Origin: a virus
Strand: one strand, 5' to 3'
DNA length: 24,248 nucleotides
Virus record (IMG/VR): IMGVR_UViG_3300020129_000084
Coordinates: 1 to 24,248 of that record
In this document: positions 3,188 through 19,570 of the stretch, piece by piece
How the letters are laid out: every line of letters begins with the position of its first letter
How positions within the stretch are numbered: position 1 is the stretch's first letter
Position numbers and translations under genes: made by a program
The notes under the pieces: model-generated
Databases searched by the model: none
The model's input: the letters and a program-made list of their open reading frames with translations, nothing else
Told to the model about the DNA's origin: nothing

Positions 3188-3626
3188 CGTCGTCGTCGCC
3201 TTCCTCGTCGGGGTAGACGAGGCGGCTGCACTCGTCATTGTGCAATCGCTCGATGCCGGTTGATGCGGCATTGGCGATCATGTCGCTGATGATCGAAGCG
3301 CCCCAAGTGATGGCGCTGATGTCCTCGTCGCAGCGCGACCAGAGCGCGTTGTACGGCTGGTAGCCGCACTCGACGCACTTTGGTCCGTAGGTGGTGATCG
3401 CGACGTAGTCCTCGCCCTCACCATCTTGAACGCTGAGCACGACACCGCGATACGGCGGTCGATCGACCACCAGCACGATGCCCTGCACACTGTTGTTGTC
3501 ACCGGCATCCCACATCCCGCTCTGTGTGAACGGGTTGTGGGTCTGCCAGTTGACGCGCAACAGTTCCCATATGTCATCGAAGGCGAGGTACCAGTCGACG
3601 ACTGGATGCTGCACCTGCAATGTCAC
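3168..3626 (-). CDS. Hypothetical protein with acidic C-terminal tail
   Basis: A 152-residue protein starting at a GTG (3626) that overlaps the previous stop as GTGA. It contains one CxxC pair (C84, C87) followed by C99, which could be part of a metal site. The C-terminus (141-152) is strongly acidic, with five consecutive Asp residues. Acidic tails of this kind occur in DNA mimics and in SSB-type partners, but no domain supports either reading. The body is rich in Trp/Tyr and appears soluble. The family is unrecognised. Confidence 0.78.
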   Translation of the reverse strand: MTLQVQHPVVDWYLAFDDIWELLRVNWQTHNPFTQSGMWDAGDNNSVQGIVLVVDRPPYRGVVLSVQDGEGEDYVAITTYGPKCVECGYQPYNALWSRCDEDISAITWGASIISDMIANAASTGIERLHNDECSRLVYPDEEGDDDDDTQAE

Positions 3627-3931
3627 ACGCCACCCCCCGGACTATCGAGGTTGGACACCATCTGCGACGCTGCCGCCAGTTGCTCGCTCGCCGCTGCCTG
3701 CCACTTCGAGCGTGACTGCTGGACAACGCTGTTGAGCATGTTGGTGTGCTCGTTGTCCATGACCTCGAAGTAGAAGTTGGCGACACGCGTGCCTTGCACG
3801 GTGACGCAAATCTTGGAGTACCACCGGCCTTCGATCTGGCAGAACTGGACGGCGCTCTCGCTCCGCAGTCCATCCTCGATCATCGCCATCGTGTCGCGGT
3901 CAGTGACCTGACTCCATCTCTCTCGCAACAT
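3623..3931 (-). CDS. Hypothetical protein
   Basis: A 102-residue protein starting MLRERWSQVTDRD at an ATG at 3931. The Shine-Dalgarno (AAGGAAAGAGGG) is embedded in the last codons and stop of the upstream gene, as is an AACCCA leader motif (3951-3956), so it can be translated independently of coupling. Residues 67-95 are Ala/Gln/Ser-rich and probably helical (SVVQQSRSKWQAAASEQLAA), and the tail is glycine-rich. The family is unrecognised. Confidence 0.75.
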   Translation of the reverse strand: MLRERWSQVTDRDTMAMIEDGLRSESAVQFCQIEGRWYSKICVTVQGTRVANFYFEVMDNEHTNMLNSVVQQSRSKWQAAASEQLAAASQMVSNLDSPGGGV

Positions 3932-4701: not shown

Positions 4702-4739
4702 CACAGCCGTCCTAACGGTTGGCCGTTAGGACGGCTGTG
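4702..4739 (-). terminator. 17-bp-stem hairpin containing palindrome copy 3
   Basis: Perfect 17-bp arms (CACAGCCGTCCTAACGG / CCGTTAGGACGGCTGTG) around a TTGG loop, beginning 10 bp after the stop at 4749. The inner 7 bp of each arm are the conserved palindrome; the outer 10 bp are unique to this copy. On the minus strand it is followed by TCATTTCC, a weak U-rich stretch. It is likely a terminator for the upstream operon. Confidence 0.65.
4712..4729. repeat. 18-bp palindrome copy 3 (centre TTGG)
   Basis: CTAACGGTTGGCCGTTAG, nested in the long hairpin at 4702-4739, 44 bp upstream of the ATG at 4667. Confidence 0.95.
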
Positions 4740-9086: not shown

Positions 9087-9121
9087 GACGTGTCCTTTCG
9101 AGGACGGTTGGGTTTGTGGGT

Positions 9122-9298: not shown

Positions 9299-9316
9299 CT
9301 AACGGCCAGCCGTTAG
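9299..9316. repeat. 18-bp palindrome copy 7 (centre CCAG)
   Basis: CTAACGGCCAGCCGTTAG with 3 further paired bases each side. It contains the TAA stop (9313-9315) of the minus-strand gene. Together with copy 6 it brackets the terminator at 9259-9288. Confidence 0.95.
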
Positions 9317-10176
9317 GCCGTGACCGTGACCGTGATTGCAGGCGCACCATCGGCAGGCGTCGCGACGTGCTGCAGCAAGTACTGCGCGATGACCTGCCCA
9401 ACGAACGCGTCCCACATTCCCGCGGGGATGTTGAGTTCGACGACGGGCTTGACCGCGGCCAGCTTGTCGCGCTTGCCGCGCAACTTGAGTACGTTCGCGA
9501 TCGCGGCAGGCACTGGGTCCGATGAGCCACCCGCGCCAGACCCGCGGCCAGCCGCGGAACGGACAAGCTTGCCAATCGCCGCGCCAGGTTTCGGCGCACC
9601 CTTGCCATCATTGGCAGTGTCGTCCCAATCCGCGGGCTTGAGTAGGGACGCCTGCAGGTCAATCGTCGAACGATTGGACCCTGCCTTGCCAGTAGCCGTG
9701 AGCGTGAGCCACACAACGTATTCGTCCGAGTCTGGCAGGTTGCCAGCCTTGAGGAATGCCGAACGCCTGCCCGCGGTGTCGTGCCTGGCGATCGTCAAGC
9801 CCTTGCTAAAGGCAGTGGCGTTCGTGGGCAGGCTGGCGCGGCCAGCCTCAGTGAGTAGGCCCTTGCCAATCGCGCGGAACAGGCCTGTTCCACTGCAATC
9901 CTCCCAATCCATCGCGCCTGCCAGCACAACGGGCTTGAGTGCCAGACCGAACGCGGACCACGCGTCAAGGGTGGCAGGCAGTTGCTCGGCGCGGGTGGCG
10001 CGTACTGCCTTATCGGCCGCGGTCTCGACCTTGCTGAGTGCCGCATATGCCTTGAGTAGCGCGGACTCAACCGCGGCAGGGGCCGCGGTGACCGCGGCGG
10101 GTGTCTCGACCGCGGGGGCCGCGGGTGTCTCGACCGCGGGTGTCTCGACCGCGGGTGTTGCTGTTGCCTTGCTCAT
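9313..10176 (-). CDS. Hypothetical protein with Ala/Pro-rich N-terminal repeats
   Basis: A 287-residue protein. Residues 8-38 are a low-complexity, probably disordered stretch of VETPA-type repeats. A helical region follows to about 105, then a mixed region (YVVWLTLTATG, about 153-163), a Gly/Ser-rich linker (about 211-220), and a basic helical C-terminus. It is a single-gene unit with its own promoter (10245-10272), a strong ribosome-binding site (AAGGAGC) and flanking palindromes, suggesting high or tightly controlled early expression. I do not recognise a family. A DNA-associated role would fit the basic Ala-rich composition but is not shown. Confidence 0.83.
   Translation of the reverse strand: MSKATATPAVETPAVETPAAPAVETPAAVTAAPAAVESALLKAYAALSKVETAADKAVRATRAEQLPATLDAWSAFGLALKPVVLAGAMDWEDCSGTGLFRAIGKGLLTEAGRASLPTNATAFSKGLTIARHDTAGRRSAFLKAGNLPDSDEYVVWLTLTATGKAGSNRSTIDLQASLLKPADWDDTANDGKGAPKPGAAIGKLVRSAAGRGSGAGGSSDPVPAAIANVLKLRGKRDKLAAVKPVVELNIPAGMWDAFVGQVIAQYLLQHVATPADGAPAITVTVTA
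10090..10160. repeat. 15-bp tandem repeats coding for VETPA
   Basis: About four imperfect copies of a 15-bp unit (plus-strand CCGCGGGTGTCTCGA) lie in the 5' end of the gene at 9313-10176, giving in-frame five-residue repeats. Copy number is likely to vary by slippage. Confidence 0.75.
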
Positions 10177-10200
10177 TGCTGTTGCTCCTTGTGAGGTTCC

Positions 10201-10433: not shown

Positions 10434-10604
10434 TCAGTGCCGCCAGCGAGCCCACACAGCCAGCAGGAGGCCAGCGCCGAGCCCGATCAGCGCGATCCCC
10501 GCTCCCACTGACCGACGATGGTAGGGAGCCTCGTAGCCGGGAGCCCAGCCGTCGAGTTCTCTGTAACCGACGATGTCATAGATCGAGGATCGAGACTTAT
10601 CCAC
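10434..10604 (-). CDS. Small membrane protein after candidate origin
   Basis: A 56-residue protein starting at a GTG at 10604 with an excellent ribosome-binding site (TAGGAG, 5 bp spacing). The first 34 residues are polar, with several Tyr; residues 35-53 form a hydrophobic helix (VGAGIALIGLGAGLLLAVW) followed by a short basic end, so it is a single-pass membrane protein. The longer in-frame start at 10856 is rejected: it would read through the repeat array and overlap the replication gene in another frame. The role is unknown. Confidence 0.7.
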   Translation of the reverse strand: MDKSRSSIYDIVGYRELDGWAPGYEAPYHRRSVGAGIALIGLGAGLLLAVWARWRH

Positions 10605-10629
10605 AGCTGCTCCTAGCCGACGATGAATG

Positions 10630-10794
10630 GTTCCCACTTCCAGTTCCCCCCTAAAGGGGGGGGAACTTGGGAACTGGTTTGGGAACTGGTTGGGAACTGG
10701 TTTGCATAATGCCTGCTCAGATGGTTCCCATTGAGTTGGGAACCGAATGGGAACCGGGAACCGTTCTGCATCATCCCTGCTCAGAGTGGTTCCC
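10630..10794. repeat. Cluster of 11 GGGAAC iterons, candidate replication origin
   Basis: Eleven GGGAAC/GTTCCC copies start at 10630, 10643, 10661, 10669, 10681, 10692, 10724, 10738, 10749, 10756 and 10789, in both orientations. Several are spaced 11-13 bp apart, about one helical turn. Two longer direct repeats share CCTGCTCAGA followed by TGGTTCCCA (about 10711-10730 and 10775-10795). One pair forms a GTTCCCCCC/GGGGGGGGAAC inverted repeat around TAAA. The array starts in the last codons of the Prim-Pol/helicase gene and continues in the gap after it. It looks like an iteron-type origin. Confidence 0.65.
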
Positions 10795-12726
10795 ACCCCA
10801 GCTAGGCAGAACGAGGCGCTTGCCACCACTCTCATCGTTGATCGCGCCACTCTCAATGGCGAGTCGGATCGCCTCGAACGCCTCTGCTCGCCTCCCTCCC
10901 ATCATCAAGGCAAGGGCATTCCGGGAGGCTGGCTGACCGTGCTCGGCCAGGGTCGAGACTGCCTTGTTGACCGCCCGCGCCAGTCGTGTCGTCACCGAGT
11001 TGTCCACAGGCAGCGGTGAGTACAAGCGGGCTTCCCAGGAGGCCGGGTCAATCCTGATCACCAAGTCAGCGACGTGCTCGTTGCGGGCGTAGGTGCCGTG
11101 CCGATCCTTGGCGCAGATCAGTCGCAGCCGACCACCCTTGTCGGCCGACAAGGGCTCTGGCGCCTGCAGCCAGTATTGGGCGCCGCCCACCGCCGCCCGC
11201 TTGCGCTTCGAGCCGGACGGGTGCAGTGGGTTGTCGTTGACCTTGGTGACGTGATCGACGATCAGCACTGCCGGGCCGTCATACCCCTCGTCGGTCACGT
11301 CCGCCAGGCGGCGCGGCACTCGACGCAGCCAGGGGCCGACTTCCGAGTCGTGGTTCTCGTCGATCCCTTCCAGCCCGAATGCCTCGCCCAGCGAGTCGAC
11401 GATCACCAAGGCCGGGCGCCGCTCGCTGATGATCTGCACCAGGTGCTCGACTGCCAGCCGATCGAACGCTGCCTGCGGGCGAATGTAGATGAAGCGCTCG
11501 ACGATCGCCTGATCATGGACGCCCAGCAGGCGCAGACGCCCGATGATCGAGGACGCCACATCTTCCAGGTCGAGCATCAGCACCGTGCTCCCCGCTCGCA
11601 GCTGTTCCGCCGCCGCGAACAGCGCCACCCAGCCTTTGCCGAGCCCGCTGTCACCGTGGACGCCGTTGATCTGGCCCCGATAGAGCAGCGCCTGGCGATC
11701 GTCGCGCTTGAGAATCGAGGGCGATGGTGCCACGTATCGCCCGGAGAGCACGTCAGTCAGGTCGACCGGCTGGAACGATTCGTCGACGGTGTTATTGTCA
11801 CCCAGCAGGGACAGTTCGGGTGCCGCTACGACCTCGACCTCGTCCACGGTGGGCGGGTTCTCGGCTTTCGCCAAGGCCCGACCCACCGCCCAACAGCAGA
11901 TGCCGACCCATTCCCGGCCGTGGCGTTCCGGTGGAGTGACGCTGCGCCACCAGTCCTGCACGAGCCGGAAGCCGTCCTTGAAGGCGTAGAAGCCCTTCAT
12001 TGATTCGTCGGCTACCTCGCACATCGCCCACACCGCGAACGGGTGACGACCCTTGGCCGGATCGCCGTTGCGGTTCGGTGAGTACGCCTCGATCGCCGTG
12101 CGCACGCCGTTGAGCATGTTGATGTTGGTGGCCGTCGAATGGGCGTTGGCGAACGCCAGCAGTTCGTCTTTGCTGACGGCGTCGACCGGACCTCCGTAGG
12201 TCGCCAGGTACTCCACCCGCGGGAATACGACCAGCTTGCTCATCTCGCCCAGGTCGAGTCCCGGCCGATCAGGTCCGGCGATGATGATGTAGCCGCCCGC
12301 GCCGCGAACCTCGCCCCAGCCTTGGCTCGGGAAGTTGGACGTGCCGTTTCCGATCTGCGCCTCGTCGGGCATCTTGAAGATCAGGTGCTGGCCGCGTCGA
12401 GTGATGTTGATGACGGCTGCTTGCACCAACTCGGGCATCCACGCCGGGATGTGCTCGCCGTCGACATCAATGTCGATCGCTAGGCAGCCGTCGCGCCCGA
12501 GCGCCCACGCAACGCTGACGTTGTCGCCCCACAGCTGCATCGCCCGGTCGAAATCCTCGACGACGTGGTTGGTCTGTGTTGACGCCAACTCGTACCAGCC
12601 GTAGCCCGGCATCGGTCGTTTCTCGATCGTGTGTGCCGGGAACACTCGCAGTCCGTAGCGGGCGTATGCGAGCGCCAGGTTGAGGATGGATAGCTCGCCG
12701 CCGTCGTTGCTGTTATCGTCACTCAT
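10771..12726 (-). CDS. Prim-Pol / RepA-like helicase fusion replication protein
   Basis: A 651-residue protein with two recognisable parts. Residues 1-180 are a bifunctional primase/polymerase N-terminal (Prim-Pol, AEP) domain with metal ligands D85-x-D87 (AIDIDVD), RRGQHLIFK (110-118) and a GEVRGAGGYIIIAGP loop. Residues about 345-570 are a RepA/RecA-like ATPase with Walker A GDSGLGKGW (358-366) and Walker B LVIVDS (440-445). The last 75 residues resemble a winged helix. Such fusions prime and unwind phage or plasmid DNA. The ATG at 12726 has an AAAGGA site 7 bp away and an AACCCA leader motif (12745-12750); GTG at 12729 is less likely. It runs directly into the iteron cluster. Confidence 0.9.
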   Translation of the reverse strand: MSDDNSNDGGELSILNLALAYARYGLRVFPAHTIEKRPMPGYGWYELASTQTNHVVEDFDRAMQLWGDNVSVAWALGRDGCLAIDIDVDGEHIPAWMPELVQAAVINITRRGQHLIFKMPDEAQIGNGTSNFPSQGWGEVRGAGGYIIIAGPDRPGLDLGEMSKLVVFPRVEYLATYGGPVDAVSKDELLAFANAHSTATNINMLNGVRTAIEAYSPNRNGDPAKGRHPFAVWAMCEVADESMKGFYAFKDGFRLVQDWWRSVTPPERHGREWVGICCWAVGRALAKAENPPTVDEVEVVAAPELSLLGDNNTVDESFQPVDLTDVLSGRYVAPSPSILKRDDRQALLYRGQINGVHGDSGLGKGWVALFAAAEQLRAGSTVLMLDLEDVASSIIGRLRLLGVHDQAIVERFIYIRPQAAFDRLAVEHLVQIISERRPALVIVDSLGEAFGLEGIDENHDSEVGPWLRRVPRRLADVTDEGYDGPAVLIVDHVTKVNDNPLHPSGSKRKRAAVGGAQYWLQAPEPLSADKGGRLRLICAKDRHGTYARNEHVADLVIRIDPASWEARLYSPLPVDNSVTTRLARAVNKAVSTLAEHGQPASRNALALMMGGRRAEAFEAIRLAIESGAINDESGGKRLVLPSWGGNHSEQG

Positions 12727-17235: not shown

Positions 17236-17681
17236 CGCTGCGCCCGACGCAGACGGGATTCGAGCCTCGCACCGCCGATCCCGAGCGCCGGGACTTCTTC
17301 GACCTTCGACGGCGACTGGCGATCGTCGAGGGGCTCGCGACCGGTGCCCCGTGGAACTTCATGGGCACGATCACGACGCCCGGTCCACCGACCACGGCGC
17401 AGGACCCGCTGCCTCACGCCGATGGCGACTTCTGGATCGACTCGGCTGGCAACGGCTGGGTCTGGAACGGGACGGCGTGGATCAACGTCGGCAGCATCAA
17501 GGGACCGGCCGGGCCACCGGGCCCCGTTGGGCCGCAAGGGCCGGTTGGGCCGACTGGTGCGACCGGCCCACAAGGCCCAGCCGGTGGATTCACCGGCAGC
17601 GCTAACGGGCGCACCATCATTGATGGCGGTACGGCGACATCGCCGGGTGACTCGATTCTCGACTGCGGGGCAGCGGCATGA
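17232..17681 (+). CDS. Short collagen-like tail/virion protein
   Basis: A 149-residue protein starting at a GTG coupled as GTGA. Residues 64-88 ([20 protein letters not shown]) resemble a small carbohydrate- or tail-fibre-associated motif. Residues about 90-118 are Gly-X-Y repeats ([17 protein letters not shown]), predicting a short triple helix. The C-terminus is a compact Gly/Ala-rich tail. It overlaps the next, larger collagen-like gene as ATGA, so the two products probably work in the same fibre. The assignment as a fibre component is inference from repeats and context. Confidence 0.75.
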
Positions 17682-19570
17682 CCACGACCATTCAGATCAG
17701 ACGCGATACCGCTGCCAACTGGACTGCCGCCAATCCGGTGCTGCACGCCGGGGAGCAAGGCGTCGAGACCGACACCCACAAGATGAAGATTGGCGACAAC
17801 GTCACGCTGTGGGTGAATCTGCCGTACGTCATCGGTCAGACCGGCCCTATCGGTCCTGCTGGCCCGCAGGGCGCACAGGGTCCGCAGGGCGTTCAGGGCA
17901 CAGTCGGCGCAACCGGTCCTCAGGGGGCCAAGGGCGATACCGGAGCGACGGGCCCAGCGGGCGCCACTGGCGCGGCGTCGACCGTGCCCGGCCCGGCTGG
18001 TCCGGTTGGTTCGACCGGGCCGACCGGTGCGACTGGCGCTCAGGGGCCGAAGGGTGATCCCGGTGCAACCGGCGCAACGGGTGCGACTGGCGCAACGGGC
18101 GCAGCGTCGACCGTGCCCGGCCCGCAGGGACCGGCTGGGCCGACCGGGCCAACCGGTGCAACCGGTGCAACCGGTGCTGCTTCGACTGTGCCTGGACCCC
18201 AGGGACCGAAAGGCGATCAGGGCACGACCGGAGCGACTGGACCCCAAGGTCCAACCGGTGCGACTGGCGCGACGGGCGCAGCGTCGACCGTGCCTGGCCC
18301 CGTTGGCCCGCAGGGTCCGAGTGGCGTTCAGGGCAATGCCGGACCCGCTGGTCCGACTGGTGCCGCGGGGGCGGGTGTTACGCCGGGCGGTGCCATCAAT
18401 CAAGTGTTGTCGAAGAAGTCTGCGGCTGACTTCGATACGCAATGGGTCGACCAGTCTGCGGGTGCGGGCGGCGCGCCGGGGATACCCGCCACGTCTGCGT
18501 CGTGGGACATCATCAATATCAACGGTTCGTTCCCCGCTACAGGTAAGCCAGGCCAGATTCTCTTTGACGAGCGCGCCAACGATGTCTATGAGTGGCGTCC
18601 TCAGGGGTTGTTGTGGGGGGCGTCGGGCGCGTACTTGCGATGCGACCTGGCGGCGGTAGTACCCGCGACGGACTACGAGGTTCTCGTCAACGTCGTACCG
18701 CAGTTCGTGCCGCCCTCTACCGCGAACGGGATGATTGTCAACTTCGGGCCGACCGCCGAGGCGCAGGACGAGGGCGGTTATTGGCGCGATCGCGACATCG
18801 ACGGTCTCGCGAAATGCGGTGGCGCGCTGTTCGTCACGAACACACCTGATGCGCGCTGGATCAGGTTCGGCCGCTGGGATGGTGTCTGTCACGTTCAGAC
18901 AACGGGTGGCGAGGTCACGTCCGCGACGAGTAACGCGACATGGGATGGCACTGGCCCGCTGTATATCGGTGGGCATCCGTCGCGGGCCTCGATGGGGGTT
19001 GGCTCGGTGCTGTATTCGGTGACGGTGAAGCGCCACTCGACCGGCATCGTGCTTGCCAGTTTCTCGACCGCGATCATGGGCGGCGCGATTTCGGCGGGCA
19101 AAGTTTGGACCGACCCACAGGGCAGTACGTGGACGCAGGTTGGTTCGCCGGTCCAGTCGATTGCCGCCCCCGGCTGGGTGTGGGTGGCGAATACGTCGGT
19201 GAAGCAGTACGGCAGCATGGCGCTGGTCAACGCCGACAACACGAACAAGGACTACCCGACGAACGGTTCGATCATTTGGGTGTCGGGGCTCGGCAACAAG
19301 GGCACGTTGTTGTACGGCACGCAAGGTGCCTGGGCTCCCGTTGGTGTAGCGACATTCGCGACGGTCGCACAGCGCGATTCGCAATGGACCGCTGCGCTGA
19401 TGGGCAACATGTTCGACGGCTCGATGTGTGTCACCGTCGATACCGACACGTTGTGGCAATGGAAGAACGGCGTGTGGGTTGCGCAGAATACATGGGTCAC
19501 GATGACGCAGGCCGCGTACGACGCCCTGACTCCGAAAGACCCCAACGTTCTCTACATCATCGTGGGATGA
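17678..19570 (+). CDS. Collagen-like tail fibre / receptor-binding protein
   Basis: A 630-residue protein in three parts. Residues 1-50 ([19 protein letters not shown] ... [11 protein letters not shown]) match the N-terminal attachment domain of tropism-determinant-type tail proteins. Residues about 54-234 are Gly-X-Y collagen-like repeats with four copies of AASTVPGP (99, 142, 167, 201). Residues about 280-470 look like a LamG/concanavalin-type beta sandwich. The end (about 605-630, [22 protein letters not shown] split by function) is a motif common at the C-terminus of phage tail proteins. It is likely a trimeric fibre that contacts the host surface. Confidence 0.85.
17837..18379 (+). repeat. 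DNA encoding collagen-like Gly-X-Y repeats
   Basis: About 180 codons of imperfect 9-bp Gly-X-Y units with a recurring [12 protein letters not shown] block. Repetition at DNA level makes it prone to recombination and length change. Confidence 0.85.

Follow-up and report, generated by a model that had tools for sequence, protein, structure and literature searches.

A candidate iteron origin of replication at the 3' end of a phage Prim-Pol/helicase gene

The window, that is the whole 24,248-nucleotide stretch of viral DNA analysed here (IMG/VR record IMGVR_UViG_3300020129_000084, positions 1-24,248; record class linear), is probably a fragment of a genome and also encodes a terminase, a portal protein and a tail fibre, the gene of the last (17678-19570) carrying collagen-like repeats and an Mtd-type N-terminus. 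The features found at and around the 3' end of its replication gene are listed in Table 1. Analysis of the deduced product, Rep, revealed a Pfam Prim-Pol domain (3.1e-13; 50.9 bits against a curated cut-off of 22.8), a PHROG match to DNA polymerase/primase and, with Foldseek, a RecA/KaiC-like core. The AlphaFold model predicted a C-terminal winged helix of the order helix-helix-helix-strand-strand, the pLDDT being about 77-86 in this local block and a weak 62 as the mean of the whole protein. Rep was 53-54% identical over the alignment to the Rep of L002, the nearest relative.

Table 1. Coordinates of the features at the 3' end of the replication gene, in window positions
Feature	Position	Strand	Basis or remark
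Prim-Pol/RecA-like (RepA/KaiC-type) helicase gene for the presumed initiator Rep, 652 aa	10771..12729	-	
Winged helix predicted at the Rep C-terminus (H578-596, H602-609, H613-625 and two strands), presumed to read the iterons	10810..10995	-	AlphaFold model
Predicted recognition helix, residues 613-625, GGR just before	10852..10890	-	AlphaFold model
Iteron array, 11 GGGAAC/GTTCCC, mixed orientation	10630..10794	.	exact hexamer count
Three tandem iterons TTGGGAACTGGTTTG, spacing 12/11 bp	10667..10704	+	
30-nt direct repeat, copy 1	10692..10721	+	
30-nt direct repeat, copy 2	10756..10785	+	83% identical to copy 1, 64 bp apart
G+C-rich hairpin, 26 nt, 10-bp perfect stem, TTTA in loop, iterons as arms	10642..10667	.	
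Perfect DnaA box TTATCCACA, 166 bp beyond Rep stop	10597..10605	+	
Perfect DnaA box TTGTCCACA, within Rep gene	11000..11008	+	
CATCGTCGG x3, possible accessory element	10512..10625; copies 10512, 10567, 10617; spacing 55 and 50 bp	-	
Possible 56-aa membrane protein ORF, GTG start inside DnaA box	10434..10604	-	read from sequence

The eleven hexamers of the array, reported earlier by a sequence-only reading, are all exact matches and start at positions 10630, 10643, 10661, 10669, 10681, 10692, 10724, 10738, 10749, 10756 and 10789. The whole window contains 23 copies where 11.9 are expected, and since this corresponds to about 0.08 copies per 165 bp, the chance expectation of about 0.1 given by that reading was correct. 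In 200 windows simulated with a window-based order-3 Markov model, the maximum taken across all hexamers was 4-6 per 165 bp, against the 11 observed. The successive spacings are 13, 18, 8, 12, 11, 32, 14, 11, 7 and 33 bp; because just four of the ten fall at 11-13 bp and the other six lie outside, the proposed location of the repeats on one helix face holds in part. The longer direct repeat that had been noticed twice was recovered as the 30-nt pair of Table 1. The array begins within the last Rep codons and extends about 140 bp beyond the stop, so the described overlap with the 3' end of the gene is present but small. As the stop codon reaches to 10771 and the only coding hexamer is that at 10789-10794, the statement that repeats make up the coding end of the gene does not hold for the window; it does apply to some relatives (pKRAD02, L062, L416 and L447). 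The array has a G+C content of 55%, no AT-rich unwinding element was evident and no marked G+C dip was found at the array or nearby, and the GC skew, computed on this partial genome of 24,248 bases, was uninformative.

No T tract was present on either side of the hairpin, which was therefore rejected as an intrinsic terminator. Perfect stems of at least 7 were found in 28 of 34 array regions where 8.3 were expected, an excess that is partly built in because opposed iterons themselves raise the frequency of stems. Exact TTRTCCACA boxes occur only twice in the whole window, at 10597 and 11000, and thus flank the array. The three CATCGTCGG copies fall in different reading frames, and in L002 one copy adjoins a DnaA box (8994).

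Palindromes of the sequence TAACGGCCAGCCGTTA were observed upstream in window numbering, at 9118, 9295, 10197 and 10273, two on each side of a 287-aa gene (9313-10176, minus strand), and the L002 homologue of this gene (9388-10188) has TAACGGGCACCCGTTA on both sides; operators or a mobile cassette are possible explanations. A perfect 17-bp inverted repeat at 4702-4739 with arms CCTAACGG and CCGTTAGG resembles these palindromes.

Comparison with relatives gave no sign that the repeats are generally lost where the replication gene is shared: the nearest relative, L002, has them, and the more distant ones selected by protein mostly carry dense arrays of different words in that position. L002 carries eight GGGAAC copies in mixed orientation directly 3' of the gene, together with a hairpin and two exact DnaA boxes. 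The same word is thus found in the same place, while the orientations in gene sense differ (+---+----++ in the window and ++++---+ in L002), a difference that speaks for selection acting on the word. Scanning for triplets of GGGAAC revealed mixed-orientation clusters, most of them at the 3' ends of several kinds of replication gene, in a set that was chosen by the word itself, a bias reduced in the two protein-chosen sets described below; among the pattern matches listed, mixed-orientation arrays numbered 17 of 120 for GGGAAC against 2 of 120 for the control word CAAGGG. Clusters at L016 2104-2292, L045 2131-2237, L073 2975-3110, L089 8012-8184 and L102 3214-3334 adjoin unrelated replication genes (VapE, Toprim_3+AAA_25 and DUF927), which suggests independent use of one word.

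The first protein-chosen set comprised 43 divergent Prim-Pol/VapE genes with less than 45% identity, sampled from the matches listed, with queries that included some proteins originally found via GGGAAC. A cluster, defined as at least six copies of a hexamer, was found in 21 of the 43 loci and was densest at the stop codon in 14 of these 21 where 1.3 were expected (p ~1e-12); by the same measure about half of the 43 genes had none among the matches listed. The second set comprised 21 window-type Rep genes with less than 75% identity, also sampled from the matches listed, and here, with clusters of at least five copies, the densest one lay at the 3' end of the gene in 19 of the 20 loci having a cluster, against 1.5 expected. 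The hexamer word differed by lineage in both sets, and GGGAAC was rejected as a single universal origin word since the protein-chosen relatives use many words. A DnaA box in the same orientation lies 166 bp past the stop in the window, 176 bp in L002, 180 bp in L127, 168 bp in the phages Leaf and Rasputia and 158 bp in Hendrix. Near this usual place a box was found in 1 of 43 and 1 of 21 genes of the two sets, among the matches listed, and the box was rejected as a general feature, being confined to some lineages.

Arrays at the stop codon were identified in the named phages MinS1 (GGACGA, 11 copies), Dagobah (GGTTCA, 12 copies) and P8625 (TCGGCA, 8 copies); the repeats were weaker in Leaf, Hendrix and Rasputia, and no array was found at the Rep stop of KimJongPhill, Zuko, Gengar and Dulem virus 38. 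The protein search also retrieved two plasmids. Kineococcus plasmid pKRAD02 (L395, NC_009660.1), whose Rep is 31% identical over the helicase part, carries nine GGGAAC copies, and its array (3610-3766) lies within the Rep coding tail past the winged helix, where it encodes a GNH/EP-rich peptide tail. Streptomyces plasmid p-XQ-29-C carries nine CTGCCC copies and a hairpin. The same kind of array is therefore found on self-replicating molecules. The terminase (TerL) relative MW202803 has a different replication module and no comparable array, and a scan of a genome collection for hosts found no relative.

Alignment of the winged helices revealed that a predicted recognition helix beginning with GR[RKP] accompanies GGGAAC in the window, L002, pKRAD02, L403, L406, L112 and L062, the helix of L062 being assigned by eye as the profile gave no match to it. 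GK[AG] was found mostly with GGACGA, GKT or GKA..WVM with AAGGGT, and GG[ST] mostly with CGGTCA; the exceptions were L416 (GKT with GGGAAC) and L460 (GGS with ACCCCG). For GR[RKP] and GGGAAC, a hand count of the protein-selected nonredundant genes gave the table 3,0/2,20 (Fisher p 0.004), which is not a clean test as the pattern had first emerged from a portion of these data, and the covariation table contains rows that are linked by phylogeny and hence not independent. The covariation suggests that the end of the Rep protein reads the iteron word. It supports, in a sharper form, the earlier proposal that the C-terminus of the protein and the origin may co-evolve, in that the predicted recognition helix varies with the word. 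In the open-access literature nothing was found that pairs GGGAAC with an iteron, and no description of a link between helix and iteron was found there by title or abstract.

The phage contigs L403 and L407/L409 have Rep proteins that are 95-96% identical, and the flanking DNA shows 91-100% identity along most of the gene and in the downstream part, while identity drops to 27-84% from about 200 bp before to about 200 bp after the stop. Within this segment the helix changes from QGRREW in L403 to KGKTEW in L407/L409 and the array from seven GGGAAC copies to AAGGGT copies, six and ten in number; the hairpin core CCCCTCTCTAAGAGGGG is common to L403 and L407. That such closely related Reps differ mainly in helix and array suggests that the protein end with its helix and the array may be exchanged between phages as one cassette. 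The arrays of L407 and L409 also diverge despite their shared word, which indicates that array turnover is fast regardless.

Iteron plasmids such as P1 and RK2 carry iterons and DnaA boxes beside the initiator gene, and this arrangement is also found in the window; unlike in these plasmids, the repeat unit is a hexamer that occurs in either orientation, primase and helicase are parts of the presumed initiator, and no AT-rich opening element was seen. The SaPI Rep and SCCmec Cch2 proteins recognise iterons located 3' of their own genes via a C-terminal part (PMC7581432, citing Ubeda 2007). As in those elements, the repeats of the window lie directly 3' of a Rep helicase gene, the reader would be a C-terminal DNA-binding domain (here a predicted fold) and primase activity is tied to the same locus; in contrast to their separate helicase and primase as described there, a single protein joins Prim-Pol with a RecA/KaiC-type motor and a winged helix, the words are others, and a G+C-rich hairpin and, in some relatives, a DnaA box are added. 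The origin of plasmid pRN1 needs a stem-loop downstream of the Prim-Pol helicase gene orf904, and both pRN1 and phage BIP-1 resemble the window, with its candidate origin, in placing an origin with a stem-loop 3' of a Prim-Pol/helicase/winged-helix gene (PMC4234260). The stem-loop is likewise immediately 3' of the gene in the window, but its 26 nt compare with about 100 nt in pRN1, the motor is RecA/KaiC-like and not an SF3 helicase, and a dense hexamer array is present where no iterons were found as origin in pRN1. For the AEP/PrimQH proteins of mobile elements, which like Rep combine a primase, a RepA- or DnaB-type helicase and a C-terminal winged helix, one account (PMC5862659) proposes that the winged helix recognises origins, and iterons and helix-word covariation are not among the features described in its passages on this. 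With SaPI Rep, SCCmec Cch2 and pRN1 as precedents, an origin 3' of the Rep gene is already known in kind.

The comparison with relatives, which supports the earlier proposal of an iteron origin at the 3' end of Rep, establishes the array, its place and recurrence, the hairpin, the DnaA boxes of some lineages and the covariation of word and helix. On this sequence evidence the array is very probably the iteron part of the phage replication origin, directly 3' of its own initiator gene, and the reading that Rep binds the iterons of its own origin appears by far the best. Weighing against it are the lack of an evident AT-rich unwinding element, the scarcity of DnaA boxes among the relatives, the phages and the roughly half of the 43 divergent genes in which no array or cluster was found, the weak model of the whole protein and the fragmentary contig. 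It is unlikely that the array is an origin whose iterons are bound by a host factor or by another initiator of the phage, with the Prim-Pol protein priming only: GGGAAC clusters do adjoin unrelated replication proteins (Toprim_3+AAA_25, DUF927 and VapE) and DnaA boxes are present, but among window-type Reps the word changes with the residues of Rep's own predicted recognition helix. In Rep systems the iterons frequently double as regulators, and the array lies between the stop codon and a possible small-ORF start with the hairpin 3' of the gene; even so, it is improbable that the array serves transcriptional control, with Rep or a phage repressor autoregulating through the repeats and the hairpin terminating the Rep transcript, as the hairpin has no T tract, searches for terminator-like and sigma-70-type sites gave none, the array lies 3' of Rep away from its promoter and inside coding sequence in pKRAD02, and such arrays accompany several replication gene types, also on plasmids. 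A centromere-like partition site (parS), for which the five direct repeats that follow repA in the mycobacteriophages Miko and Rachaly are a precedent (PMC7157519), is very improbable, as no ParA/ParB-like protein was found among the window proteins scanned (of an incomplete genome) and the word varies with the Rep recognition helix.

If Rep initiates replication at this array, its C-terminal winged helix would recognise GGGAAC iterons of either orientation, and the bound subunits may gather around the central hairpin. Host DnaA at TTATCCACA, just beyond the array, would aid duplex opening, after which the RecA-like ring would be loaded and the Prim-Pol domain would prime the exposed strands, leading to replication presumably of the theta type.

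We somewhat favour the wider view that phages and plasmids share a large family of replicons in which a Prim-Pol/RecA-like initiator recognises a short iteron word through its winged helix by a simple residue-to-base code, and that exchange of the cassette of winged helix and array between phages would switch replicon specificity in the manner of incompatibility groups. The arrangement offers a sequence rule for locating candidate origins in many phages encoding such replication proteins, and L403 and L407 form a natural pair in which word and helix are changed jointly in near-identical proteins, making the recognition of origin by initiator testable. The pairing of helix and word also suggests how related phages may avoid cross-reaction between their replicons.
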